IMG/VR virus record: IMGVR_UViG_3300030331_003204
Location: 1 to 20,717 of that record
Strand: one strand, 5' to 3'
Origin: a virus
DNA: 20,717 bases
Below are positions 4,273-16,169 of this stretch, one piece after another. The translations under genes and the position numbers were made by a program. Every line of letters starts with the position of its first letter. Position 1 is the first letter of the stretch. Below the pieces are notes generated by a model that was not told where the DNA came from, did not search any database, and saw only the letters and a list, made by a program, of their open reading frames with translations.

Positions 4273-4469
4273 TGGCGATACAAAGAATACCTGCAAAAGC
4301 TGTTGAAATTGTAAAAAATAAAAGAACAGGTAAAGTCTATGCAGATAAAGCTGAGTTTGATGCAGATGTTGCAGATCCAAACACAGACACAACCGCAGAT
4401 GATTTTAGACAGGATTTAGAGATTACAGTTGCTAAACTTACGCTTTTTGGTAAAACCAAAGACGAATGA
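4272..4469 (+). CDS. Small conserved phage protein, 65 residues, function unknown
   Basis: A 65-residue protein starting on the previous stop (TAATG), preceded by GGGAGG at 4261-4266, a good ribosome binding site. It begins MAIQRIPAKAVEIVKNKRTG. Its middle is acidic (DKAEFDADVADPNTDTTADD), and its C-terminus is a strand-like segment (LEITVAKLTLFGKTK). I recall this type of sequence from uncultured marine phages, always as a hypothetical protein. No domain is recognised. It overlaps the glycosyltransferase start by four bases (ATGA), so the two are probably translated in a coupled way. Confidence 0.7.
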   Translation: MAIQRIPAKAVEIVKNKRTGKVYADKAEFDADVADPNTDTTADDFRQDLEITVAKLTLFGKTKDE

Positions 4470-5395
4470 AACCACGTGGCGGAACAGAACTTCAACTAGA
4501 GCTATTACACAAATATTGCAAAAAAGATTTACTAGATCAAGTAAACATATGCACATCCATTCCTGGAAAAGTGCCTTTAGTTAAAGATAAATTAAATATA
4601 CTTTGGCAAAAAAATTCCTACGATCAACCAAATTTACAAAAATTTTTTGGAGATCAAAACAGACATGATGAATATGACTGGTACATATTTAATTCACATT
4701 GGAATTATGAAAAATTTAGATATTATTTTAGAATACCTGAAGACAAATCAATGGTCATAAAAAATGGGGTAGAACATTTTCCAAAACGTAAACGTTATTT
4801 GCAAGGTGAAAAAATAAAAATATTGTATAACTCAACACCTTGGAGAGGTTTAAATGTTATGTTAGGTGCTATGCAGTTTGTTACAAACCCAAATGTTGAA
4901 TTAGACGTTTATTCATCTACACAAATCTATGGTGATTATTTTGAAAAAGTGAATGAGGGAAAATATGATCCTTTGTTTGATCAAGCAAAAAAATTAAAGA
5001 ATGTAAATTATATTGGATACAAACCACATGAATATATTATGGAAAACATCAGTGACTATCACATATGGTGTCATCCTAGTTGTTGGGAGGAAACGTTTTG
5101 TATCGGAGCTTTAGAAGCGATGGCAGCTGGTATTTATATGATATGCACAAATTATGGAGCTTTATATGAAACTTGTTCTGAATGGCCTGTATATGTAAAT
5201 TACACAGGAAATTATGTTAAATTAGCACAGACGTTTGGCCAAGCTATAGATATGGCCTGTAAACAAATAGGAGAAGATTATTTAGAAGATCATCTAAATG
5301 CTCAGCAAGAGCATGCTAAACGGTTTTATGATTGGAAGAAAAAAGGTGGTGAGTGGGAAATATTTTTACAAGGAGCTATAAATGCAAAATCTTAA
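4466..5395 (+). CDS. Glycosyltransferase, GT4-like (GT-B fold)
   Basis: A 309-residue protein with features of GT-B retaining glycosyltransferases. There is a Gly-rich loop near the N-terminus (RGGTELQ, 4-10) of the type that contacts the acceptor or sugar donor, and an EX7E motif, E209 to E217 (EETFCIGALEAMAAG), that binds the nucleotide-sugar. NSTPWRGLNVML (122-133) matches the start of the C-terminal domain, and HPSCWEE (203-209) precedes the motif. It is shorter than typical bacterial family members (about 350-400), mainly because the N-terminal domain is compact. It starts within the stop of the previous gene and overlaps the next glycosyltransferase by 14 bases. It should move a sugar from a nucleotide-sugar to an acceptor in the infected cell; the acceptor (virion protein, host lipopolysaccharide or DNA) is not shown. 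Confidence 0.8.
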   Translation: MKPRGGTELQLELLHKYCKKDLLDQVNICTSIPGKVPLVKDKLNILWQKNSYDQPNLQKFFGDQNRHDEYDWYIFNSHWNYEKFRYYFRIPEDKSMVIKNGVEHFPKRKRYLQGEKIKILYNSTPWRGLNVMLGAMQFVTNPNVELDVYSSTQIYGDYFEKVNEGKYDPLFDQAKKLKNVNYIGYKPHEYIMENISDYHIWCHPSCWEETFCIGALEAMAAGIYMICTNYGALYETCSEWPVYVNYTGNYVKLAQTFGQAIDMACKQIGEDYLEDHLNAQQEHAKRFYDWKKKGGEWEIFLQGAINAKS

Positions 5396-6200
5396 TGAAG
5401 ACGAATTAATAAAACCAATATGGGTAGAAAAAAAACCAAAAGAAATTTCTCCTTATAGATTATTTGTAGCTACACCTTGTCATTCGGAAGTTTCATTACA
5501 TTATGTTCAGTCGCTTTTAGATATATCTAGAGTGTGTCATACAAATAAAATGCATGTAGAATTTTGCATATTGAAATCATCCTTAGTTACACAAGGCAGA
5601 AACTTGTGTGTCTCTGGTTTTTTAGAATCAAACTGCACACATATGCTTTTCATAGATTCAGATATAAATGTTCAAGCTAAAACTATTATGAAAATGTTAC
5701 AAGCAGAAAAAGAGTTAATCTCTGTTCCATATCCACTTAAAGCTTTTTTATGGGACAAAGGTTTTGATGAAATTAATCAAGGTAAAATAAAAAAACCAGA
5801 AGATTTAGAACAAATATTTAACAGTTATCCCATGAAAGTTATGGATAAAAATGATGTAAAACTTACAGATGGTATAATAGAGATTACTCACGCACCCACA
5901 GGATGCATGTTAATAAAGAGGTCAGTTTTTGACAAACTAATAGATAAATATCCAGAACGAGAGATACGTCAAAATACTGTAATTAATAGTAAATTAGTCT
6001 TAAAAAAGCACATGTGGAATTTTTTTGATACTTTACATGATCCAATTGCTAAAACTTACCTAGGTGAGGATTTTGCCTTTTGTAAATTATGGAAAGATAT
6101 TGGTGGAAAATGTTATGCATATATTTTGGACGAGATCATTCATGTGGGTGAACATTCGTATAAAGGTAAGTTTGTCGATGAGTTGATATTACATAAGTAA
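5382..6200 (+). CDS. Glycosyltransferase-like protein, GT-A fold
   Basis: A 272-residue protein whose core fits GT-A glycosyltransferases. VATPCHSEVSLHYVQSLLD (29-47) forms the first nucleotide-binding strand and helix. HMLFIDSDI (87-95) carries the metal-binding DxD (D92, D94). APTGCMLIKRSVFDKL (171-186) and GEDFAFC (228-234) match the acceptor and catalytic region, and HVGEHSYKG (254-262) the usual closing segment. SSLVTQGRN (66-74) is a phage-typical loop. A strong ribosome binding site (AAGGAG, 5370-5375) lies six bases before the ATG, inside the upstream glycosyltransferase gene, so the pair is co-translated. It presumably acts with that gene on one glycan or virion target. It is the last gene before a 43-base gap. 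The fold call is good; the reaction is unknown. Confidence 0.75.
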   Translation: MQNLNEDELIKPIWVEKKPKEISPYRLFVATPCHSEVSLHYVQSLLDISRVCHTNKMHVEFCILKSSLVTQGRNLCVSGFLESNCTHMLFIDSDINVQAKTIMKMLQAEKELISVPYPLKAFLWDKGFDEINQGKIKKPEDLEQIFNSYPMKVMDKNDVKLTDGIIEITHAPTGCMLIKRSVFDKLIDKYPEREIRQNTVINSKLVLKKHMWNFFDTLHDPIAKTYLGEDFAFCKLWKDIGGKCYAYILDEIIHVGEHSYKGKFVDELILHK

Positions 6201-6243: not shown

Positions 6244-7194
6244 ATGTCATTTGCTGCTTTAATTCCATATGCTTTAGGAGCCATCGGAGCAGTTCAAGGA
6301 TATAGATCAGCAAGGGATTCAGGAGCTACAGGTTTAGGTTCATTAATATCAGCGGGTCTTGGTGGTTTTGGTGGATACCAATTGGGTGGTAGTCTTGCAG
6401 GTTTACTTCCTGGACAAGGGGTGAGTGCCGCAAACACTTTAGCAGCCAGATCAACTATGCCACCAGGTATAACAGCAAGTCAAGACGCTAGTTTTTTTGC
6501 GAGAAAAAATTTAACTCCACCAAAAAAAGGTAACACATTTTTTGATTTTTTTAAAAAAGCTAATAGTGATGATTATGACCCATTAAAAGTAAGTCTTGCA
6601 GCAGGAGCTGTTCCCTTATTAGCAGGTGCATTTGATCAAGCACCTGTAGATATTTATCAACCTGGTTATAATGTTGGTTATTTAGATATGAGAGATAAAA
6701 GACCAGGTTTTAAATATATTGATCCAGAGACAGGACAAGAAAAAGAATACGAAAGAGTTTATGCACCAGAAGAACAAGCTAGAGGTGATAGAAGACTAGG
6801 TAACTTGTCATTAAATGTTATGAGATTAAATGCAGGTGGAATCGCACAAATAAAAAAATTTAATGAAGGTGGTGTAAATTATTTACCTTCAAAAGTTTCA
6901 CATGATGAAAATGATTCTAACAACTACATAAGAGCAAGTGGTTATGTTGAAGATGGATCAGGAGCAGGTGATAAAGACGAGGATACAATGTTAGCTCAAT
7001 TAGCAGACGGAGAGTTTGTAACGAGAGCAGATGGAGTATTAGGAGCTGGAATCATAGCTGGAGCAAATCCAAACAGCATGAAAGACATGAGAGAAAAAGG
7101 AGCCCAATACTTCTATGAACAACAAAAACGATACAAAAGAGTTTTTGATTTATTAAAGGAGAAGAATGGGGACAGTCAGCAAAAAATCAATTAA
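6244..7194 (+). CDS. Virion structural protein with Gly/Ala-rich N-terminus and DGEFV motif
   Basis: A 316-residue protein. Residues 1-58 are a hydrophobic, Gly/Ala-rich helical region (GLGGFGGYQLGGSLAGLLPG). The middle is polar (PPKKGNTFFDFFKK, 92-105). The C-terminal third has NAGGIAQIKKFNEGG (196-210) followed by LADGEFVTRADGVLGAGI (253-270), an arrangement I recall in short-tailed phage virion proteins encoded just before the internal proteins. Its last residues (YFYEQQKRYKRVFDLLKE) are a charged helix. It overlaps the next gene by 29 bases. It lies immediately upstream of the putative ejection cassette, so a role in the internal or portal-proximal virion is likely, though no orthologue in a model phage is recognised. 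Confidence 0.65.
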   Translation: MSFAALIPYALGAIGAVQGYRSARDSGATGLGSLISAGLGGFGGYQLGGSLAGLLPGQGVSAANTLAARSTMPPGITASQDASFFARKNLTPPKKGNTFFDFFKKANSDDYDPLKVSLAAGAVPLLAGAFDQAPVDIYQPGYNVGYLDMRDKRPGFKYIDPETGQEKEYERVYAPEEQARGDRRLGNLSLNVMRLNAGGIAQIKKFNEGGVNYLPSKVSHDENDSNNYIRASGYVEDGSGAGDKDEDTMLAQLADGEFVTRADGVLGAGIIAGANPNSMKDMREKGAQYFYEQQKRYKRVFDLLKEKNGDSQQKIN

Positions 7195-7633
7195 ACCATT
7201 AGTAAGTGTTTTACCAATAGAGCCAAAAGATATTGATAGGTTTTGGCCTTTGGCTGAATTTATGGTAGCTGAAGCATTAGCATTTTCTGGTAAGTATGCT
7301 GATTCAAGTTTTATTTTTAGAGAATTAAAAAAAGATGTAATGCAATGTTGGATTATGTTTGGATCAGATGAAACAGAAGAGAATAAAGTATTTGGTGTTT
7401 GTGTTGGTAGAATTGCAGAGCTTCCAAACTATAATCAATATGAAATAGTTATATGCACGGGAAAAAGAAGAGAGTATTGGGAAGATCAATTAGTAAAAGA
7501 AGTTACAGAATTTGCAAAACACAACGCATGTAAAAGATTATGTATCATGGCAAGACCAGGTTGGGAGAAAGTTTCAAAAAAATGGGGTTGGCAAAAAAGA
7601 CATGTACAATTAGAGAAATGGATAGATAAATGA
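7166..7633 (+). CDS. GNAT-like protein, T7 gp13-like by position
   Basis: A 155-residue protein with a GNAT acetyltransferase-like layout: an N-terminal helix pair (DIDRFWPLAEFMVAEAL), strands around VFGVCVGRIAEL (75-86), the EIVICTG strand (93-99) followed by a helix, then ACKRLCIMARPGWEKVSKK (121-139) and GWQKRHVQLEKWI (141-153). The segment where GNATs carry the acetyl-CoA loop (Q/RxxGxG/A) reads GKRREYWED, so cofactor binding is doubtful. T7 gp13 is a small protein (138 residues) encoded just before the internal core genes 14-16, and this gene has the same place. AAGGAG at 7156-7161 supports the ATG at 7166, inside the preceding gene. It is probably a virion assembly protein with a GNAT-derived fold; true acetyltransferase activity is not supported. 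Confidence 0.6.
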   Translation: MGTVSKKSIKPLVSVLPIEPKDIDRFWPLAEFMVAEALAFSGKYADSSFIFRELKKDVMQCWIMFGSDETEENKVFGVCVGRIAELPNYNQYEIVICTGKRREYWEDQLVKEVTEFAKHNACKRLCIMARPGWEKVSKKWGWQKRHVQLEKWIDK

Positions 7634-8463
7634 GTTTTTTAGGCGGAGGAAGATCTAGAACACCAAGCACACCATCAACGACTACACAGATAGTACGTGA
7701 AGCACCTGGTATAGAAGAGCGTAAACTAGAGTTAATGGATATAGCGAGGCAGGTCGCTCAAAAACCTATTAACTTACCTACAATCCAAGTAGCACCATTA
7801 TCACAATTAGAACAACAAGCTACAAGGTTAGCTGGACAGACTGGTGTTGGAGCAGGGACAACGGCTCAAGGAATAGCACAGTTACAAGCAGCAGCAGCCG
7901 CTCCTAATATACAACAATTTTTTAATCCATTTGATCAATTTGTTACAGACGAAATACTAAGACAAGGACAACAAATGCAAAATCAATTATCAGCTCAAGC
8001 AGTTGGTAGTGGAGCTTTTGGTGGTGGTAGAGAAGGTGTGCAACAAGCAGAATTACAAAACAGAATTTTATCAAATGTTGGAAGAGCTAGACAACAAGGA
8101 TTTGGAACAGCTTTACAAGCCGCACAAAATCAACAAAGAACACAAGCTGCTGTTGGTCAACAATTGTTGGGTGCAGGTCAACTTCAGCAACAAATGGGTC
8201 AACAAGATATCAATCAATTAATGTCTGCTGGTGGTGTACAAAGGCAACTTGCACAAGCAGCTTTAGATGCACAAAGACAATCTACATTACAACAGCAATT
8301 TGAACCATTCCAAAGAGCTGAATTTTTAGCAAATTTATATGCTGCGGGTCCAAAAACACAATCAGGTGTTACTATAGGCACGGCACCATCGACCAGTCCT
8401 TTAGCACAAGCTGTTGGAACAGGAATAGGAGCATTCACAGCGTTTCAAAATACAAAGGGGTAA
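7630..8463 (+). CDS. Gln/Ala-rich internal virion protein, T7 gp14-like by position
   Basis: A 277-residue protein dominated by Gln, Ala and Gly with long predicted helices. The N-terminal 20 residues are Ser/Thr/Pro-rich and flexible (GGGRSRTPSTPSTTTQ). From about 60 to 240 there are Ala/Gln repeats such as AQLQAAAAAP and LLGAGQLQQQMGQQ. A Gly-rich break (GSGAFGGGREGV) lies near 126-137, and the C-terminus is TSPLAQAVGTGIGAFTAF, a hydrophobic helix. T7 gp14, the channel-forming ejection protein, is likewise Ala/Gln-rich and lies between genes 13 and 15; here the neighbours match in order and size. The start overlaps the previous stop (ATGA), and a five-base gap separates it from the 740-residue gene. 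Ejection of this protein into the host envelope is inferred from synteny only. Confidence 0.65.
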   Translation: MSFLGGGRSRTPSTPSTTTQIVREAPGIEERKLELMDIARQVAQKPINLPTIQVAPLSQLEQQATRLAGQTGVGAGTTAQGIAQLQAAAAAPNIQQFFNPFDQFVTDEILRQGQQMQNQLSAQAVGSGAFGGGREGVQQAELQNRILSNVGRARQQGFGTALQAAQNQQRTQAAVGQQLLGAGQLQQQMGQQDINQLMSAGGVQRQLAQAALDAQRQSTLQQQFEPFQRAEFLANLYAAGPKTQSGVTIGTAPSTSPLAQAVGTGIGAFTAFQNTKG

Positions 8464-8468
8464 GTTAG

Positions 8469-10691
8469 ATGTCATTTAACAAAGTTTTAAATAGACCCTT
8501 ATTTAGGCAACAAGCGTTAAAAAAAGGTTATCTTAAACCGATACACGCTCAAACAGGTGTTATGGTTGGATCACCAACTACTCCTCCGCCATTTCCTGCT
8601 TTGAGAAAACCACCTACATTTATGGAAAGAATGTCTGTAAGTGGACCAGCAAGATTTTTAAGATCCACAATAGGAATTCCCACTGTCGTAGGTTTTGATG
8701 CATCAGGTAAAGTAGCTGATGCCTTTGGTATTGATGATCCAATGGGTAGACTCGCTGTGCAATCATTAGGAGCTTATGGTGCAACAAGAGCACTCCCTGC
8801 CCTTTCTGCTTCCGCTATTGGTTTAGGACCGACAGCGATAGGTTTAGGAACGATCTATGGAGCAAAAAAATTAGTTGATGCAGGTATTGCAGAACGTAAG
8901 AGAATAAACGCAATGTCTCCTAAAGAACGTGAAGAATTTGAACAGGAGCAAAGAGCTAAAGCATTAGGAGGAGAAGCACTTGAAGCACTAGAAAATATTG
9001 ATGTTAGGGCAGGAGCCATTCAACCTAAAAAAGAATTGAAAGTAAGAGTGAAACCAAAAAGAGGTCAACCTGGTTCTGGTAGGTTATCAGATAAAAAATC
9101 AAAAAGCACATTACAAGCGGAAGGAGATGAGCTTGTTAATGATGAGTTTGCATCAGTAGATGGAGCTACAGATATTAATAAAATTCAAAATAAAGCACTA
9201 GGTTTTGATGAAGGTGATATGCAAATGCCACCTACATCTGATGTTCTTACAGCAACTGAAGAGGATGAAAAAAATAAAAAAGCTGAGGCAGATAAAGAGA
9301 AAACAAAAGACAAAAACAAACAACCACCGCCAATAACTTCAGCAATTACAACTGGTGGGGACTCTTTTGATCAAACAATTAAGTTAGCTAAAAGATATCA
9401 AGCTGAATTAGATGCAGGTGATAGATCTCAAGCTAAGTTAGTATTTTTAGCAAATTTAGCATCAGGTTTATTAACAGGTAAAACTACACAAGGTGGATTA
9501 GCTGGTGCCTTGGAAGTCTTTGGACAAGCACTTGGTCCAGCTGTAAACAATTTTGCTACCATAAAACTTAAAGAGGGAGAGTTAAGAAGAAATTCAAGAG
9601 AGGCGTCTTTGAATGCTGCAATAGATCATATGAAATTTTTAAATGATGCTCAAAAAGTTGAAGATCCAGCTGTTGATTCTTATGGAATAGTTCAAATAAG
9701 AGATGTAAACGGTAGATTAATTAATAAAAAAGGTATTAGATACAAAAATGGAACAGCAGCCATACCTGCGGGATTAGGACCAGATGGTAGAGAAAGATAT
9801 GTACCTATCGCTCAAGGTGGTCCAATAATGAGCAGTGGACCTGATGGTATTGCAGGTAATGAAGATGACGTAGTAGTAGGAAGTTTTGAAAACTTTTTAC
9901 CTCAGAAACAAATTAGTGATAAACTTTTTGAAATACATGATGTTTTAGGAAATAGATATAATGCTTTATCTGTTGCAAGAGATGTACTTAGAACTTTAAA
10001 TCAAGTAGATGCTGAAGGTGAAAAACCAAAAGCCGGGGCTGCATTAGTTGTAGATTCATTTATTAGAAGATTTACTGGTGTTGCAAAAGAATTAGCATTA
10101 GGAAAAGTTACAGATGAAGATTTTAGTAATTTAACACCACAAGCATTAAAAGTTAAATTAGATCAATTATATAATGAAGAAGTTGCGAAAATTGAAACAG
10201 CTGATTTAACAGAAGAACAAAGAAAAGCAGAACTTGAACTTATTGATAAAGAAAGATTGTTAAACAAAACTAAAGATAGATTGAAAAAAAGAGGACTATT
10301 TTCAGGTCTTTCAAGAGCAGAACAAGAAAGATTAGCAGTTCAAGAAACAACCCTTGTATATGCTTTAGCAAATACATTTAAAGATCAAGATCGATTAACA
10401 CAGAGAGATATTGATGCTGCTAGAAACATAGTTAACATTTTTTCTTTAACTAGATCATCTGCGGATGTTAGAGCTTCAATAGAAGCTATAGCACAACAAT
10501 TAGAAGCTGACATAAAAAGGCAAGAAGAATTATATGCATTAAGTGGTGGTCTTGAAACATCTGTACAACAATTAAGAGGATTGAAAAATTTCACACCATT
10601 TAGACAACTACCAGGTGGATTACAGGAGCAATTAATGGGTGATTTGACTGATGAAGAAATACAAAAAAGATTAGATGCATTGGAGTTATAA
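8469..10691 (+). CDS. Large internal virion/ejection protein, T7 gp15-like by position
   Basis: A 740-residue, mostly helical protein. Residues 80-140 form an Ala/Gly-rich hydrophobic region (LGAYGATRALPALSASAIG). Residues 150-290 are highly charged and probably disordered or coiled (KEREEFEQEQRAKALGGE, EEDEKNKKAEADKEKTKD). Residues 300-400 are helical, about 410-480 carry a beta-rich insert (YGIVQIRDVNGRLINKKGI, GPDGIAGNEDDVVVG), and 490-740 are again helical with many Glu, Lys and Gln. No catalytic motif is visible. T7 gp15 is 747 residues, mostly helical, and forms part of the ejected channel; size, composition and neighbours agree. AAAGGGG at 8454-8460 lies just ahead of the ATG. The next gene starts on its stop codon (TAATG). 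Homology to T7 gp15 is not visible in the sequence itself. Confidence 0.65.
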   Translation: MSFNKVLNRPLFRQQALKKGYLKPIHAQTGVMVGSPTTPPPFPALRKPPTFMERMSVSGPARFLRSTIGIPTVVGFDASGKVADAFGIDDPMGRLAVQSLGAYGATRALPALSASAIGLGPTAIGLGTIYGAKKLVDAGIAERKRINAMSPKEREEFEQEQRAKALGGEALEALENIDVRAGAIQPKKELKVRVKPKRGQPGSGRLSDKKSKSTLQAEGDELVNDEFASVDGATDINKIQNKALGFDEGDMQMPPTSDVLTATEEDEKNKKAEADKEKTKDKNKQPPPITSAITTGGDSFDQTIKLAKRYQAELDAGDRSQAKLVFLANLASGLLTGKTTQGGLAGALEVFGQALGPAVNNFATIKLKEGELRRNSREASLNAAIDHMKFLNDAQKVEDPAVDSYGIVQIRDVNGRLINKKGIRYKNGTAAIPAGLGPDGRERYVPIAQGGPIMSSGPDGIAGNEDDVVVGSFENFLPQKQISDKLFEIHDVLGNRYNALSVARDVLRTLNQVDAEGEKPKAGAALVVDSFIRRFTGVAKELALGKVTDEDFSNLTPQALKVKLDQLYNEEVAKIETADLTEEQRKAELELIDKERLLNKTKDRLKKRGLFSGLSRAEQERLAVQETTLVYALANTFKDQDRLTQRDIDAARNIVNIFSLTRSSADVRASIEAIAQQLEADIKRQEELYALSGGLETSVQQLRGLKNFTPFRQLPGGLQEQLMGDLTDEEIQKRLDALEL

Positions 10692-13600
10692 TGGCTACAT
10701 TAAAAGAAATACAAGATGCAATTGATAATAAAACATTTGATCCTTCAAAATTATCAAGACAAGAGAGAAATTTAGTTGATGAAGCTATAAAACGTGGTTT
10801 AATTAAAGGTCCAACAACTAGAACCATAACTGGACAAAGACAATCAGCAGCCAGAGATGTAGCAACCATGGATGCAGCATCTAAAAATCCTATAGGTGTG
10901 GCTCTGCAACAACAAGACAGTTTTTTTAAAGGTCGAAATGAGGCCATACTAGCAGGTGATCTAATTGGAAGTATTTACCCATATGTAGCTGATAGAAAAA
11001 AAATATTTAGTGCAGCAAAATCTAAAATACCTGGCAACAAAGATACAGGTTTATTTCCAAGATCTAAAATTTTTAATAATTTTGCTGACAAACTTACACA
11101 AAGATTACCAGGAAGATTTAAATTATTAGGTGGAGCTGTAAAATTATTAGCTAAGGCAGCCGATCCAACACTTGGTAGAGTATTAGCAAGTCCGTTAGGA
11201 AGAACAGAAATAAAATCTGTTTTAGGTGGCACAGTTGGTGCTGGTGTAGGATCAGTGGGTTACGATGTTTTAAATGAAACAGCTGGAGTTGCTGTTATGG
11301 ATGGAATTGCAAATGATTTAGAAAACATGAGCCCTCAAGAAGTAAATACAGATATGATGGCCAATGCATCTGACGCAATGTTTACTGCTTTGGCTTGGAA
11401 TGCGGGAGCAGCAACACTAACTCCTATGATCACAAAAGGTTTTGGTAAATTAGCTAGGTTATCTATTGGTGCAAAATCTAAAGATGCGAAAGAATTAGTT
11501 GCAATAGGTAGAGAAAAAGGATTACCAGTTCCGTTAGTTATGACAGCACAAGAAGGTGTAGGTTTAGCTGGCGGTTTTGCAAGAAAATTTTTTAAAGTGC
11601 TTGGTATCATGCCATTTATTAATGGTATTGGTAAAGAAGCCATGCAAGGAGCTGAACAAAAAGCAGGTAAAGAATTTTTAAATACAAGCGTATTAAATTA
11701 CGGCCCGTTAATAAAAACTGGTTTATTATCTGCTACAGTATTTAAACAAGCAGACGAAGCTTTTAAACAAAATTCTAAATTAATAAATGATAGTTATACA
11801 GCGTTTGAAGAGTTAGCAAATGTAATTGGTAATCCAAGAGTTATCGAATTGAGAAAAACTAAAGAATTTGCAAAAACTATGGTTGATAGAATTTCTGCGT
11901 CCTTTCCTGGTATTAGACAATACGCTCAGGATTCGTTAGGACAAATACCAAGAAAAGAAATAGAGAAACTAACGGGAATAGGCGACCCATTAACAACTTT
12001 TTATAGATATATTAATTCATTAGACGATATGGTTAGTCCTCTTGAGTATAAAGAGTTAATGAAACTAATGAACAGAGCAATAGAAGATACAACATATCAA
12101 AATATAAGACCTACCTTGTGGGCAATTAGAGAGGGATTAGAAAATGATTTAAATGCTTTTGGTACAAATATTTCTAAAGAAAAATTTTTTAAAGATGCTG
12201 CTTTTAAAGAAGCTTATGATACTTCAGTCTCCACATTAGGTAAGGAAGTTGCAGAAAAAAATTTAAATGATCAAATAGCAGAAGCAAAAAAATTAAAAGA
12301 CAAACTTTACGCAGCAAATGATACTTTTTCAACTTTGATGAATTTTTATCAAAGAGCTGGAGTTGTACAAACTTTTAAAAAATTTGATAATACAAAATTT
12401 ACAAACAAAGCTTTAGCAGGAATTAGAGGCATTGAAAGAGGTAAAGCTCAAACATTTTTTAATGATTTAGCTAATGATGTTTTCACACATGGTGATAAAC
12501 AATCTTTAAAACAACTTCGACAATTGTTAGGTGCAGATAAGATTATTTCTCAAAAAACTGGAGCAGAAATTGGTATTGTTAAAGGTGGTGGAGAAGCTCT
12601 TTATAACGCAATGAAAGCTAGATGGTTTTTTAATACTTTTTATAGAAGTTTTGATTCAACGCTGACTCCAGGAGGAAGAACTATGATGGATGATATTCTT
12701 GGGGATTCTACAGTGAGAGCTGGTATAAATGGAACTGTTGATGTTATGCAATCTATGAAAAATATAGCAAGACAAAACGGAGAAGAAATTTTAGATTTTG
12801 ATATTAAAAAGGTTATTGGAAGTAACGGAATATTAGATGCACAAAAAATAAAATTTAGTCCTAAGGATACCTCAAAATTTAATATTAATAGATTTTTAAA
12901 ATCTTTAGGAATAGACAATCCTTTAAATGAAGTGAGAAAAGATGCTTTAGTAGAAATGTTAGGCGGTAGAGCAAAATCAATGGAGTTTGAGAAATTTATT
13001 ACATACATGAAAGCAGTTTCAGATACACCTATTGCTGACACATCTACTTTTATGCAAAGAAGATTACAATTAGGTGGTTTAAATTCTTTTGCAGGTGCTT
13101 TAGTTTTAGGGGGCTCTGCGGCCATTAACCCTTTAGCTCCAGCATTATTTATTTTATTAGCTAGAAGATTTGGACAAATAGTTACTGATCCTATTGCTAT
13201 GAAAGCATGGAATGATGCATTAAATCCTGATGAGCAAATACGTTTATTAATGGGTAAAAAAGTTGGCGATGGTGTACCAGGTTTATTAGGAGTTGGTAGA
13301 AGATATTTTAAAGGTAGAGATATTCAAACCGCTGCTAATGTTTTACAATCTCCTGGCGTTATTGGTAGATTAGGTCTTACACAAAAAAGAGAGGCATTTG
13401 CAAGACTGATGAATTATTTAAATGACAGCGATAGCGATATACCAAGAATTAATCCAAAAGAAGTGGATCCTGAAGAAATTACACAAAGATTATTAGAGTT
13501 AGATGGTAAAATACCAGATCCCCAATATAACGATAAGACTGTTCCAAAACAAACATTTGAAACTTTATTTGCTAATGATTTAACAGATAGTTCAGGTAAC

Positions 13601-13876
13601 GTAGAAATAGATAATAACGCTGTTGCATTTTTAAATACTGCAACAAATAATGAAGCTGAATTAGAAGTAGAAGAAGCTCCAGCAGTAGCAGAGGAAGAAA
13701 CAAAAATAATGGAGGATTTAGAATTAGAAAATCCAGTTCAAAGCACACCTAACGTAGCAGCAATGCCACCGGCAACTGGACAACAAAATGTGAATCCACA
13801 ACAGTTCGCAACTTTATTTCCTAACGATCCAACAGGTGCAGCTATAGCACAAAGGAGAAGAGGTGCCCAAAGATAA
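10691..13876 (+). CDS. Very large internal virion/ejection protein, T7 gp16-like by position
   Basis: A 1061-residue helical protein, the longest in the window, following the 740-residue gene as T7 gene 16 (1318 residues) follows gene 15. Ala/Gly-rich hydrophobic stretches occur near 160-215 and 815-850 (AAINPLAPALFILLARRFG), with long Lys/Glu-rich helices between. No lytic transglycosylase motif (as in T7 gp16) or peptidase motif was found, so cell-wall activity is not supported. The acidic tail (about 985-1015) is flanked by two copies of a QxFxTLFxNDxT motif (954-965 and 1037-1048), the second ending in a basic C-terminus (AQRRRGAQR). It starts on the previous stop codon, and its last 14 bases overlap the holin-like gene. 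It is probably ejected with the DNA; the function is inferred from context. Confidence 0.65.
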   Translation: MATLKEIQDAIDNKTFDPSKLSRQERNLVDEAIKRGLIKGPTTRTITGQRQSAARDVATMDAASKNPIGVALQQQDSFFKGRNEAILAGDLIGSIYPYVADRKKIFSAAKSKIPGNKDTGLFPRSKIFNNFADKLTQRLPGRFKLLGGAVKLLAKAADPTLGRVLASPLGRTEIKSVLGGTVGAGVGSVGYDVLNETAGVAVMDGIANDLENMSPQEVNTDMMANASDAMFTALAWNAGAATLTPMITKGFGKLARLSIGAKSKDAKELVAIGREKGLPVPLVMTAQEGVGLAGGFARKFFKVLGIMPFINGIGKEAMQGAEQKAGKEFLNTSVLNYGPLIKTGLLSATVFKQADEAFKQNSKLINDSYTAFEELANVIGNPRVIELRKTKEFAKTMVDRISASFPGIRQYAQDSLGQIPRKEIEKLTGIGDPLTTFYRYINSLDDMVSPLEYKELMKLMNRAIEDTTYQNIRPTLWAIREGLENDLNAFGTNISKEKFFKDAAFKEAYDTSVSTLGKEVAEKNLNDQIAEAKKLKDKLYAANDTFSTLMNFYQRAGVVQTFKKFDNTKFTNKALAGIRGIERGKAQTFFNDLANDVFTHGDKQSLKQLRQLLGADKIISQKTGAEIGIVKGGGEALYNAMKARWFFNTFYRSFDSTLTPGGRTMMDDILGDSTVRAGINGTVDVMQSMKNIARQNGEEILDFDIKKVIGSNGILDAQKIKFSPKDTSKFNINRFLKSLGIDNPLNEVRKDALVEMLGGRAKSMEFEKFITYMKAVSDTPIADTSTFMQRRLQLGGLNSFAGALVLGGSAAINPLAPALFILLARRFGQIVTDPIAMKAWNDALNPDEQIRLLMGKKVGDGVPGLLGVGRRYFKGRDIQTAANVLQSPGVIGRLGLTQKREAFARLMNYLNDSDSDIPRINPKEVDPEEITQRLLELDGKIPDPQYNDKTVPKQTFETLFANDLTDSSGNVEIDNNAVAFLNTATNNEAELEVEEAPAVAEEETKIMEDLELENPVQSTPNVAAMPPATGQQNVNPQQFATLFPNDPTGAAIAQRRRGAQR
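13550..13585 (+). repeat. Protein-level motif repeat, copy 1 (QxFxTLFxNDxT)
   Basis: Encodes QTFETLFANDLT (residues 954-965 of the 1061-residue virion protein). A diverged second copy, QQFATLFPNDPT, is encoded at 13799-13834. The copies are 83 residues apart, on either side of an acidic, probably disordered linker. Confidence 0.6.
13799..13834 (+). repeat. Protein-level motif repeat, copy 2 (QxFxTLFxNDxT)
   Basis: Encodes QQFATLFPNDPT (residues 1037-1048), thirteen residues before the end of the 1061-residue virion protein and followed by a basic tail. Third-codon positions differ from copy 1 at several places, so the likeness is kept at protein level. Confidence 0.6.
13852..13857 (+). promoter_or_regulatory. 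Shine-Dalgarno sequence fixing a GTG start
   Basis: AAGGAG lies five bases before the GTG at 13863. It supports a non-ATG start for the holin-like gene inside the end of the preceding gene. Confidence 0.6.
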
Positions 13877-14060: not shown

Positions 14061-14725
14061 AGTTAAATAAAAAATATAGTTACAAACATTACAATAGATT
14101 TTCAGATACTACAGGTCGTAAATATTTAGTTGATAATATTAAAGTTCCATCAGTCACAACCATTCTAAGTGCAACTAAAGATAGAAGATTTTTAGATAAT
14201 TGGAGAAGAAGGGTAGGAGAAAAAGAAGCTGATAGGATTATGAATCAAGCTTCAACTATAGGCACTGAAATGCATCAGGTGCTTGAATATTATCTTACAG
14301 GTCAAGGATATTACAATGCTATGGATGAAGGGACAAAACCACGAATGATGGCTAAAACAATACTTGACCATATTAAAATTGATGAGGTTTGGGGTAATGA
14401 AATAAGTCTTGAATATCAAAATAAATTTGCAGGAACATGTGATTTAACTGCTGTTGCATACGGAAAACCTAGCATAATCGATTGGAAACAAACAAATAAG
14501 CCAAAAAAAGAAGAATGGGTTGAAGATTATAAGTTACAGCTTGGTGCCTATTATTTAGCCCATACAGCGAATTACGGGCCCATAGAGCAGGGTGTAATAG
14601 CCATGTGTAGCCGAGACCTCCAATATCAAGAGTTTAAGCTCTCAGAGGCGGATTTAAGGGAATACGGTGATAAATTTTTAAAAAGATTAGAACAATACCA
14701 TAAATTAGAGCAACCAGGATCTTAA
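14057..14725 (+). CDS. PD-(D/E)XK exonuclease (RecB/MGME1-like)
   Basis: A 222-residue nuclease with the motif series of RecB-type PD-(D/E)XK enzymes: GTEMH (69-73, H73), an acidic residue in NEISLEY (E115 or E119), GTCDL (D129), IDWKQ (D142, K144) and QLGAYYLA (Q161, Y165). The N-terminal VPSVTTILSAT and NWRRRVGEKEAD segments resemble phage MGME1-like exonucleases. It probably degrades or trims DNA ends during replication, recombination or host DNA breakdown. The start is GTG at 14057, overlapping the previous stop; no strong ribosome binding site is seen, which fits translational coupling. Its 3' end runs 21 bases into the end of the convergent helicase gene. The family call is strong; single- or double-strand preference is unknown. 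Confidence 0.85.
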   Translation: MKLNKKYSYKHYNRFSDTTGRKYLVDNIKVPSVTTILSATKDRRFLDNWRRRVGEKEADRIMNQASTIGTEMHQVLEYYLTGQGYYNAMDEGTKPRMMAKTILDHIKIDEVWGNEISLEYQNKFAGTCDLTAVAYGKPSIIDWKQTNKPKKEEWVEDYKLQLGAYYLAHTANYGPIEQGVIAMCSRDLQYQEFKLSEADLREYGDKFLKRLEQYHKLEQPGS

Positions 14726-16138
14726 CTCCTCTTCTCCTAGTGTTTTAGCAGCTATTTGGCCCTTATTTATTAAGGATTTCATAATAGCTTCATCTAAAGT
14801 ATTTCTAGCTAATATATCAATATATACAACAGATCCTGTCTGTCCCATCCTATGAGCCCTATCTTCAGATTGCATTCTTACTTCAAGGTTATAACTATTT
14901 GAATAATAAACGACAGTATTACAGGCAGTAAGAGTAAGCCCAAAACCACCAGTAGTTGGATTACCCACGAGGAATCTTGTATTTTTATCTTTTTGAATTC
15001 TTTCAACGGCATTTTTTCTATCTTGTACACTAACTTCTCCAAAAATAGAAACAACTGATTCTTCACCATATCTAGTTTTTAAAAAATGATTAATTTCATG
15101 TATGTTCCAGAGGTAATTAGCCCAAATAATGATCTTACCATCTGTCTCTTCAATAACCTCCTGCAAAGCTTTTAGTTTAGAATCATGTAATCTAAGCATT
15201 TTGCCCTCATCATCTTTAGTAAAACCATTACACACTTGATGTAATTTTACTATTTCTGTTAGCTTATTTGAAAATGATATAGTGCTATCTTCAACAACTG
15301 CTAATGCTGAAGTTCTTAAACGATCATATATTTTTTTGCTTTCACCCTCAAGATCGATATATCTTTTTTGACGTATTTTTGGTTTTAAGTCTAAGCATTG
15401 GTCTTTTCGTATTCTAGTTGAAAACTGTTGGAGTTTTGTTTCTAATTCTTCAAGTCTTTTGTAATATTTTGGAACAGATATAAATCTACCTGACCCGACT
15501 GGGATATCAGTCATTTCTGCATATCTGTTTCTAAAAGCTAAATAACTAGAAAATCCTAATAATTCTGGACTTAAGAATTGACATTGTGTAAATAAATCTA
15601 ATGGAGATTTTGTTATTGGCGATCCTGTTAGGATTCGCCTTATACTCGACAGTTTTCTTAATCCTAAAATGTTTTTTGTTCGTTTTGCTGATCGGTTTTT
15701 TATTGTGGTGGATTCATCCAATACTACAAAGTTTAGTTTATTTTTAGTTAAATAATCAACACAACCTTCAAATCCTCTTTTTGTAGATAATGCCTCAACA
15801 TTAATTAGAAAGATTCTAAGATCTTTATAATCATTTAAATTTGTATAAACGCTTGGTTTATCAATATTCCATTTATAGATTTTGTATTTTAATTGATCTG
15901 GAAAATGAGTTTCTATTTCAGTTTCCCATACTGTATAAACAGATTTAGGTGCAATAATAAGAGCAGCAGTAATTTTTCTTTGAAAAAATAAATAAGCCAT
16001 ATTATCTATGGTAACCTTAGTTTTTCCTGTTCCCATCTCCATAAAATATGCCCACTGCACTTTTTCAGCAGATTGATTTAGAGCATTACGTTGGTGTTCG
16101 TAAGGTTTAGTTTTATACGGGTATTTCCACATCTGCAT
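14705..16138 (-). CDS. SNF2-type superfamily 2 DNA helicase/translocase
   Basis: A 477-residue minus-strand protein with all main SF2 motifs. These are EMGTGKTK (34-41, Walker A), LIIAPKSVYTVW (60-71), VVLDEST (138-144, a DEST variant of motif II), LTGSPI (170-175, motif III), GKIIIWANY (334-342), TTGGFGLTLTACN (395-407, motif V) and QSEDRAHRMGQ (423-433, motif VI with two arginines). The QxEDRAHRxGQ form is characteristic of SNF2-like proteins. It would use ATP to translocate on or remodel DNA during replication or recombination. The ATG at 16138 is preferred. An upstream in-frame TTG at 16162 and a second ATG at 16132 are alternatives, and none has a clear ribosome binding site. It is the only complete minus-strand gene in the window, convergent with the nuclease and divergent from the coiled-coil gene, which suggests separate control. 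Confidence 0.9.
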   Translation of the reverse strand: MQMWKYPYKTKPYEHQRNALNQSAEKVQWAYFMEMGTGKTKVTIDNMAYLFFQRKITAALIIAPKSVYTVWETEIETHFPDQLKYKIYKWNIDKPSVYTNLNDYKDLRIFLINVEALSTKRGFEGCVDYLTKNKLNFVVLDESTTIKNRSAKRTKNILGLRKLSSIRRILTGSPITKSPLDLFTQCQFLSPELLGFSSYLAFRNRYAEMTDIPVGSGRFISVPKYYKRLEELETKLQQFSTRIRKDQCLDLKPKIRQKRYIDLEGESKKIYDRLRTSALAVVEDSTISFSNKLTEIVKLHQVCNGFTKDDEGKMLRLHDSKLKALQEVIEETDGKIIIWANYLWNIHEINHFLKTRYGEESVVSIFGEVSVQDRKNAVERIQKDKNTRFLVGNPTTGGFGLTLTACNTVVYYSNSYNLEVRMQSEDRAHRMGQTGSVVYIDILARNTLDEAIMKSLINKGQIAAKTLGEEELRSWLL

Positions 16139-16142
16139 TTTA

Positions 16143-16169
16143 AATATATTTTCTTGTTGCAAAATTCAA
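16143..16169 (-). promoter_or_regulatory. Candidate minus-strand promoter for the SNF2 helicase
   Basis: On the minus strand, TTGAAT (16164-16169) and TATATT (16143-16148), separated by 15 bases, resemble -35 and -10 boxes. The -10 box ends four bases before the ATG at 16138, so the message would be leaderless or use the ATG at 16132. The short spacer and AT-rich setting make this a weak candidate. Confidence 0.25.

Follow-up and report, generated by a model that had tools for sequence, protein, structure and literature searches.

In phage T7, genes 13, 14, 15 and 16 encode proteins of 138, 196, 747 and 1318 amino acids (aa), the first of which acts in assembly. P22 gp16 is without the hydrolase domain of T7 gp16, and a membrane segment near the C terminus is described as a common feature of gp16-like proteins (PMC8954989). 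Here we consider a cassette of four consecutive genes in a 20,717-base virus record from IMG/VR (the window, by which we mean the whole stretch of DNA analyzed), whose products of 155, 277, 740 and 1061 aa take the positions of gp13, gp14, gp15 and gp16 (Table 1). We think it likely, judging from protein families and gene order, that the products of this cassette are the internal (ejection) proteins of an HTVC023P-group marine podovirus, and that its detectable ancestry lies closer to P22 and LUZ24 than to T7. We favor this reading because the gene order is conserved, because the second protein and its relatives match PHROG 4287, because the last protein matches P22 gp16 and because a nozzle gene lies upstream.

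A first-pass annotation of the window had described the cassette as a deeply diverged counterpart of the T7 set. Its account of the genes holds: the coordinates and sizes of the four open reading frames (ORFs) are as it gave them, it quoted the T7 sizes correctly, the second protein is rich in Gln and Ala (18.4% and 14.1%), and the third and fourth are long and, in AlphaFold models, mostly helical. It had also put the cassette behind a gp12-type nozzle gene. Such a gene does lie upstream, but about 4.1 kilobases and six + strand ORFs come between it and the first cassette gene, whereas T7 genes 12 and 13 are adjacent.

By protein similarity and gene order, the window is a fragment of a relative of the HTVC023P-type pelagiphages, that is, of a marine virus with a short tail and with relatives among the phages of the abundant bacterium Pelagibacter. 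The nozzle protein has its nearest relatives in Pelagibacter phage HTVC023P and then in 023Pt_psg01, HTVC027P and DSL-LC04, the helicase encoded at 14705-16162 has the same ones, and the gene order round the cassette is that of HTVC023P gp72-gp86. The four ORFs are consecutive on the + strand, all begin with ATG, and either overlap by a few nucleotides or are spaced by 5. To place them among their relatives, we collected IMG/VR homologues of the 740-, 1061- and 277-aa proteins (for the last, 80 of 431 matches) and counted neighbors at 126 nonredundant loci carrying a 277-aa homologue. A GNAT-like gene lies directly upstream at 120 of the 125 loci with an upstream gene, and it is preceded by a homologue of the 316-aa protein at every one of the 115 loci that extend further. 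Downstream of the 277-aa homologue stands a gene of the 740-aa type (88 of 121 loci), which in turn is followed by one of the 1061-aa type (74 of 76). The arrangement is not a matter of chance. The five loci with no GNAT-like gene directly upstream are those of HTVC027P, DSL-LC04, 023Pt_psg01, CRP-901 and DB2, and in the last two annotated GNAT genes adjoin or lie near the gp14-type gene; other loci have a third gene of a different type, such as the 286-aa gp82 of HTVC023P.

The 277-aa protein matches PHROG 4287, "DNA ejection protein," at E 6.9e-8, and 62 of its 65 relatives match the same family at E up to 0.01. So does gp54 of phage tf, which the tf record names "phage particle protein"; the 277-aa profile, built before tf was added, finds tf gp54 at E 1.4e-5, and in hhalign tf gp54 reaches a probability of 3.7 against the window's 277-aa family and 46 against the HTVC027P-type family. 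BLAST links the 277-aa protein to HTVC023P gp81 and DB2 gp18, and a profile match leads to HTVC027P gp83. In the tf paper, a gp54 appears among the predicted membrane proteins, and the text that counts seven tf proteins homologous to LUZ24 virion proteins does not name gp54 among them (PMC3517423). The hydrophobic-segment test is uninformative for proteins this small, T7 gp14 and P22 gp7 likewise scoring as without a segment.

The 1061-aa protein supplies the tie to P22. Aligned by hhalign, its family (45 sequences) matches P22 gp16 with probability 96, E 4.2e-9 and a score of 84.5 over 433 columns, residues 182-812 of the window protein pairing with residues 75-559 of P22 gp16. Ten P22 gp16 profiles with shuffled columns score 13 to 21; the reversed 1061-aa query scores at best 31.5 against 74 references, with P22 gp16 outside its twelve best, the lowest of which is 20.7. 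The P22 gp16 profile is free of window-type sequences. The match survives removal of the most diverged family member (E 1.1e-8) or of the two most diverged (probability 87.3, E 3.8e-6), recurs in three random sets of 15 relatives (78, 88 and 91), and stands at 96.2 with only the 20 distant members. HTVC023P gp83 matches P22 gp16 independently (96.6, or 95.2 without the shared locus), and the 1061-aa family matches gp83 itself (98 with the shared locus L163, 92.4 without it). Among the 74 references, the profile also finds Sf6 gp13, the P22 gp16 homologue, at E 1.7e-5. For T7 gp16 the score is 26.1, lower than the 27.4 of the reversed query. In line with the first-pass annotation, for which the gp16 counterpart appeared to lack a transglycosylase, none is recognizable: neither the Pfam nor the PHROG scan, the latter of which does recognize T7 gp16, finds a hydrolase domain in the 1061-aa protein. 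Since P22 gp16 has none either, this apparent lack is simply the usual P22 state. The single hydrophobic segment of the protein, residues 805-823, falls inside its best conserved part. Foldseek comparison of the AlphaFold model with BFVD returned 11 phage proteins at E up to 0.001 (probability 0.97-1.00), and two further matches, at E 2e-3 and 1.3e-2 (probability 0.99), are named "LT_GEWL domain." No relative of the 1061-aa protein turned up when bacterial and archaeal genomes were scanned. In Roseobacter phage CRP-901, gp31 (L011 15099-17375, deposited as hypothetical) is a weak candidate for a P22 gp16 relative, matching as a single sequence with probability 45; a value of 99.7 for the same pair was discarded, the profile having contained a P22-type sequence, L258.

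Several observations weigh against reading the cassette in this way. When the profile is restricted to the window protein and its 24 closest relatives, it matches P22 gp16 with a probability of only 1.4, and the window protein alone does so with 0.3, both alignments keeping one register (232-280 to 163-211); the link is one of profile against profile only, and it needs distant relatives in the profile. None of the 45 relatives directly matches PHROG 770, the P22 gp16 family, at E up to 0.1, the P22 gp16 hidden Markov model (HMM) finds HTVC023P gp83 only at E 0.26, and the last gene of the HTVC027P set (gp85, 1342 aa) has no P22 gp16 match. The model of the 1061-aa protein is poor (mean predicted local distance difference test score [pLDDT] 54.9), and the 11 BFVD alignments have low template modeling (TM) scores, 0.13-0.27 by query. 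For neither the 740- nor the 1061-aa model did fold searches of the PDB give anything but common helical arrangements, in a PDB copy that holds no chain related to P22 gp16 or gp20; that T7 ejection proteins are not among the matches listed carries no weight. The 740-aa protein has no profile match to T7 gp15, P22 gp20 or any known tunnel protein.

The new and most testable element of the cassette is a short motif at the N terminus of the gp15-position proteins: Met and a few residues, followed by K-[VIT]-L-x-R-[PK]-[ML]-F-[RK], which in the family of the window protein takes the form K-V-L-x-R-P-[ML]-F-R at residues 5-13. Of 116 gp15-position proteins, 103 fit a loose expression for it within their first 25 residues, against 3 of the 1,552 other ORFs at the same loci; these counts are a description rather than a blind test, the expression having been written after the N termini were inspected. 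Of the 87 proteins in the 740-aa group, 78 have the motif, as do 24 of the 25 in the HTVC023P gp82 group; it is also found on HTVC027P gp84 and in 023Pt_psg01 and DSL-LC04. Among ORFs of at least 90 codons in the complete HTVC023P genome, gp82 is its sole carrier. At HTVC027P-type loci where the N terminus is given, 28 of 29 have it, the exception being L370, in which the last gene comes straight after the gp14-type gene. The motif is missing from the gp15-position proteins of CRP-901, DB2 and L162, and from the stretches examined of T7, P22, Sf6, SP6, P-SSP7, phiKMV, VpV262, epsilon15, HTVC011P, tf, HMO-2011 and HTVC010P. In a search of literature full texts for the five-letter core, no use in a phage appeared within the texts searched, as judged by titles and the openings of abstracts.

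Is it the peptide or the DNA that is conserved? Synonymous codons differ at several motif positions, which points to the peptide, though the Leu codon is nearly fixed (TTA in 89 of 90). A scan of IMG/VR with a DNA pattern for L-x-R-P-M-F-R, the commonest codons being fixed, comes closer to a blind test than the first count, although it includes at least four contigs of the earlier set. It found at least 80 loci. At 71 of the 80 listed, the peptide opens an ORF that directly follows a gp14-type gene; in two the gp14-type gene is one small ORF away, two start at a contig end, one is cut at its 5' end, and four have no motif-bearing ORF of at least 60 codons.

What the motif does is a matter of weighing. 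It may quite well be nothing more than the part best preserved in a single ordinary family that evolves fast, with no special role, a view that we place somewhat short of an even chance. Once the first 35 residues are cut off, BLAST places 180 of 208 gp15-position proteins in two of 14 clusters (11 of the 14 carry the motif, in 195 proteins); in one profile build, the 740- and 286-aa groups match each other at E 2.8e-6; and the motif belongs to only one of three conserved islands in the 740-aa family (residues 1-40, about 321-380 and about 621-680). Yet the match between the two groups is lost in a broader build (probability 0.8), and nine small motif-bearing groups stay unlinked, though one of them, L145, is a fragment recognized by the 740-aa HMM. 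As a possibility of a more tentative kind, we speculate that K-x-L-x-R-P-M-F-R is a dedicated loading or docking signal of ejection proteins, read by a conserved partner such as the portal or the gp14- or gp16-position protein, so that the body behind it would be free to diverge or be replaced. In that event, the motif would be a signature by which to name tunnel proteins in marine podophages where these are otherwise difficult to recognize. We set aside a stronger form of the idea, in which unrelated bodies stand behind one tag: the two large groups match at E 2.8e-6 in one build, though not in the broader one, and HTVC027P gp84 joins the HTVC023P gp82 group through intermediates.

The 740-aa protein itself is assigned by its place in the cassette. 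Its AlphaFold model has a mean pLDDT of 68.2 (best at about 400-540 and 610-700) and consists of long helices round a small beta domain, with a beta stretch at about 402-478. A BFVD search with this model yielded no protein at E 0.001 or below. Comparing the 740- and 1061-aa sequences with named phages by BLAST brought no match, and profiles of the 277-, 740- and 1061-aa proteins against PDB sequences gave nothing useful. At L043, L066 and L069, the 740-aa-type gene is in two ORFs, which may reflect sequencing errors or frameshifts. Could some of these genes, chiefly this one, encode external parts of the tail, or head-completion parts, that remain with the particle instead of channel proteins that leave it? 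The missing match to a known tunnel protein would fit, as would other labels on relatives ("tail spike protein/chaperone" for DB2 gp18) and the annotation of P22 gene 14, in a similar place, as head morphogenesis. We nonetheless find this unlikely, for the gene order, the PHROG 4287 matches and the P22 gp16 match all indicate ejection, and the third gene lies between two ejection-type genes at most loci examined.

The weakest alternative is that the cassette is a direct, deeply diverged T7-type gp13-16 set, its P22 gp16 match stemming from an older common ancestor or a swapped last gene, and we regard it as improbable: the order is that of T7, with a small gene in the gp13 position and first and third genes of similar size, T7 gp13, HTVC011P gp31 and epsilon15 gp13 form one family through shared members at E 1e-6 (a GNAT match being noted for epsilon15 gp13 in its record), and hhalign misses even accepted T7-type pairs (T7 gp16 and P-SSP7 gp16, probability 1.8; T7 gp14 and SP6 gp35, 4.7), but no cassette protein does better against its T7 counterpart than its reversed profile does, at best, against any of the 74 references, the gp16 match is to P22, the P22 order is identical, and the nozzle protein is related to tf gp57. 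Because accepted pairs fail too, the missing T7 match is in itself weak evidence. Of the earlier claim of a T7-like apparatus, then, an ejection cassette in the T7 order probably survives, while a specific T7 likeness is not supported, the homology detected being with P22 and LUZ24-type phages. Of the checks that the first-pass annotation proposed, profile-profile comparison yielded P22 gp16 rather than any T7 protein, and structure prediction gave mostly helical models of the two large proteins and no specific fold.

If the cassette does encode ejection proteins, we posit a mechanism in which they are packed in the capsid near the portal and, at infection, exit ahead of the DNA and assemble into a passage through the envelope. 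First to act, at or near the outer membrane, would be the 277-aa protein, in the role of gp14 or P22 gp7; the 740-aa protein would form the periplasmic tube, in that of gp15 or gp20; and the 1061-aa protein, of P22 gp16 type, would extend to the inner membrane and guide the DNA as it enters. In this model, the 155-aa GNAT-like protein would aid assembly as T7 gp13 does, and the motif of the gp15-position protein would serve to dock or load it on a conserved partner. With the cassette named, its last protein tied to P22 gp16 and the candidate tunnel protein marked by its motif, such sets could be annotated in metagenomes, and two questions would become testable: how do such phages cross the SAR11 envelope, and how do ejection proteins that evolve so fast still assemble?

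The first cassette protein had been called GNAT-like, and the label keeps some footing on thin evidence: one of 48 family members matches Pfam Acetyltransf_10 (E 7.9e-5), and the best PDB profile match, a weak one, is an N-acetyltransferase (E 0.014). By BLAST, the protein is related to gp16 of Octadecabacter virus DB2, deposited as "acetyltransferase" (E 9.8e-5), and the family profile, built without phage tf, finds tf gp55 at E 2.9e-11. These BLAST and independent-profile values stand in place of hhalign probabilities of 100 for tf gp55, DB2 gp16, DB2 gp18 and HTVC023P gp80 and gp81, which are partly circular, the profiles coming from the same loci. We infer that the GNAT-like protein is probably an assembly factor rather than an enzyme. 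The 316-aa protein encoded before it is as constant a neighbor of the cassette as the GNAT-like gene and is a possible extra member. In its place, HTVC027P has gp82, whose last 44 residues recur in DSL-LC04, in a protein of 759 aa that is labeled "tail tape measure protein."

Other loci vary the theme. At L135, L137, L149 and L151, the third gene encodes 409-455 aa and the cassette is followed by one more large gene, of 572-834 aa; at L162 (248-2218), the 277-aa homologue lies within a 657-aa ORF, followed by the gene that is without the N-terminal motif; Octadecabacter virus DB2 (L012 14136-15704) has a cell wall hydrolase in the gp15 position (Pfam Hydrolase_2, E 3.9e-19); and at L364-L368 and L372, predicted proteins of 2,172-2,688 aa partly resemble HTVC027P gp85. 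Between its nozzle gene and the cassette, at 4466-6200, the window has a gene of glycosyltransferase type (309 aa) and another that encodes 272 aa, and the pair has the same place in HTVC023P, where the counterpart of the former is labeled "glycosyl transferases group 1," and in HTVC027P. Some relatives of the nozzle-type protein carry the label "stabilization protein." The 65-aa protein belongs to a family of unknown function, has its hydrophobic segment at residues 43-61 and is often encoded directly 3' of the cassette in relatives; it might be a membrane or lysis protein.

Table 1. The cassette and neighboring features, in order along the window
Feature	Positions	Strand	Basis or remark
Nozzle/tail hub-type protein, 730 aa	846-3038	+	PHROG 3287 "virion structural protein," E 4.5e-86; 60% identity to HTVC023P gp72; related to phage tf gp57 (LUZ24 gp56 type)
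316-aa protein	6244-7194	+	Overlaps GNAT-like gene by 29 nucleotides
GNAT-like protein, 155 aa, gp13 position	7166-7633	+	
Gln/Ala-rich protein, 277 aa, gp14/P22 gp7 position	7630-8463	+	"DNA ejection protein" family
740-aa protein, gp15/P22 gp20 position, candidate channel protein	8469-10691	+	Position
N-terminal conserved region of gp15-position protein, residues 1-34	8469-8570	+	Column counts; core residues 5-13
P22 gp16-related putative ejection protein, 1061 aa, gp16 position	10691-13876	+	hhalign
Small 65-aa protein with single strongly hydrophobic segment	13863-14060	+	PHROG 38642, E 4e-27

Set against the described systems, the cassette has its detectable homology outside the T7 group. 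Relative to T7, the largest size gaps are at the second gene (277 versus 196 aa) and the fourth (1061 versus 1318 aa), and T7 gp16 matches transglycosylase families where the 1061-aa protein matches none. P22 (14-7-20-16) and Sf6 (gp10-13) have the order of the cassette behind a tail hub gene, and their last protein is related to ours by profile and likewise has no hydrolase domain that we found; P22 differs in the length of gp16 (609 aa versus 1061 aa), in a needle gene (26) that belongs to its set, and in gp14, gp7 and gp20, which have no detectable similarity to the first three cassette proteins. In LUZ24-type phages (tf gp57-gp51, UFV-P2 ORF64-ORF58), the order is again the same, and the nozzle, GNAT-like and gp14-position proteins are related to ours; the nozzle profile, built before tf was added, finds tf gp57 at E 7.3e-22, and a tf gp57 profile reaches a probability of 0.4 against T7 gp12 and 5.8 against P22 gp10. 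The account of UFV-P2 gives the same order and names several of the genes as particle or structural proteins (PMC3890496). In tf, the N-terminal motif is absent, there is an extra 126-aa gene (tf gp53), and gp52 and gp51, compared as single sequences with low power, have no match above control to the 740- and 1061-aa proteins. Among roseophages, "internal virion protein D" and GNAT genes are reported in CRP-810-type phages (PMC11288001).

The closest likeness is to the cultured pelagiphages. HTVC023P gp80-83 and HTVC027P gp83-85 are deposited as hypothetical proteins, apart from HTVC027P gp85, a "putative structural protein," and the main text of the pelagiphage genome paper does not use the words "ejection" or "internal virion" (PMC9599517). 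Both sets are syntenic with the cassette. In HTVC023P, gp80 and gp81 are related to their counterparts by BLAST and gp83 by profile; beside HTVC027P gp83-85, no GNAT-like gene was recognized. HTVC023P gp82 (286 aa) and HTVC027P gp84 (279 aa) are much shorter than the 740-aa protein of the window, and both carry the N-terminal motif.

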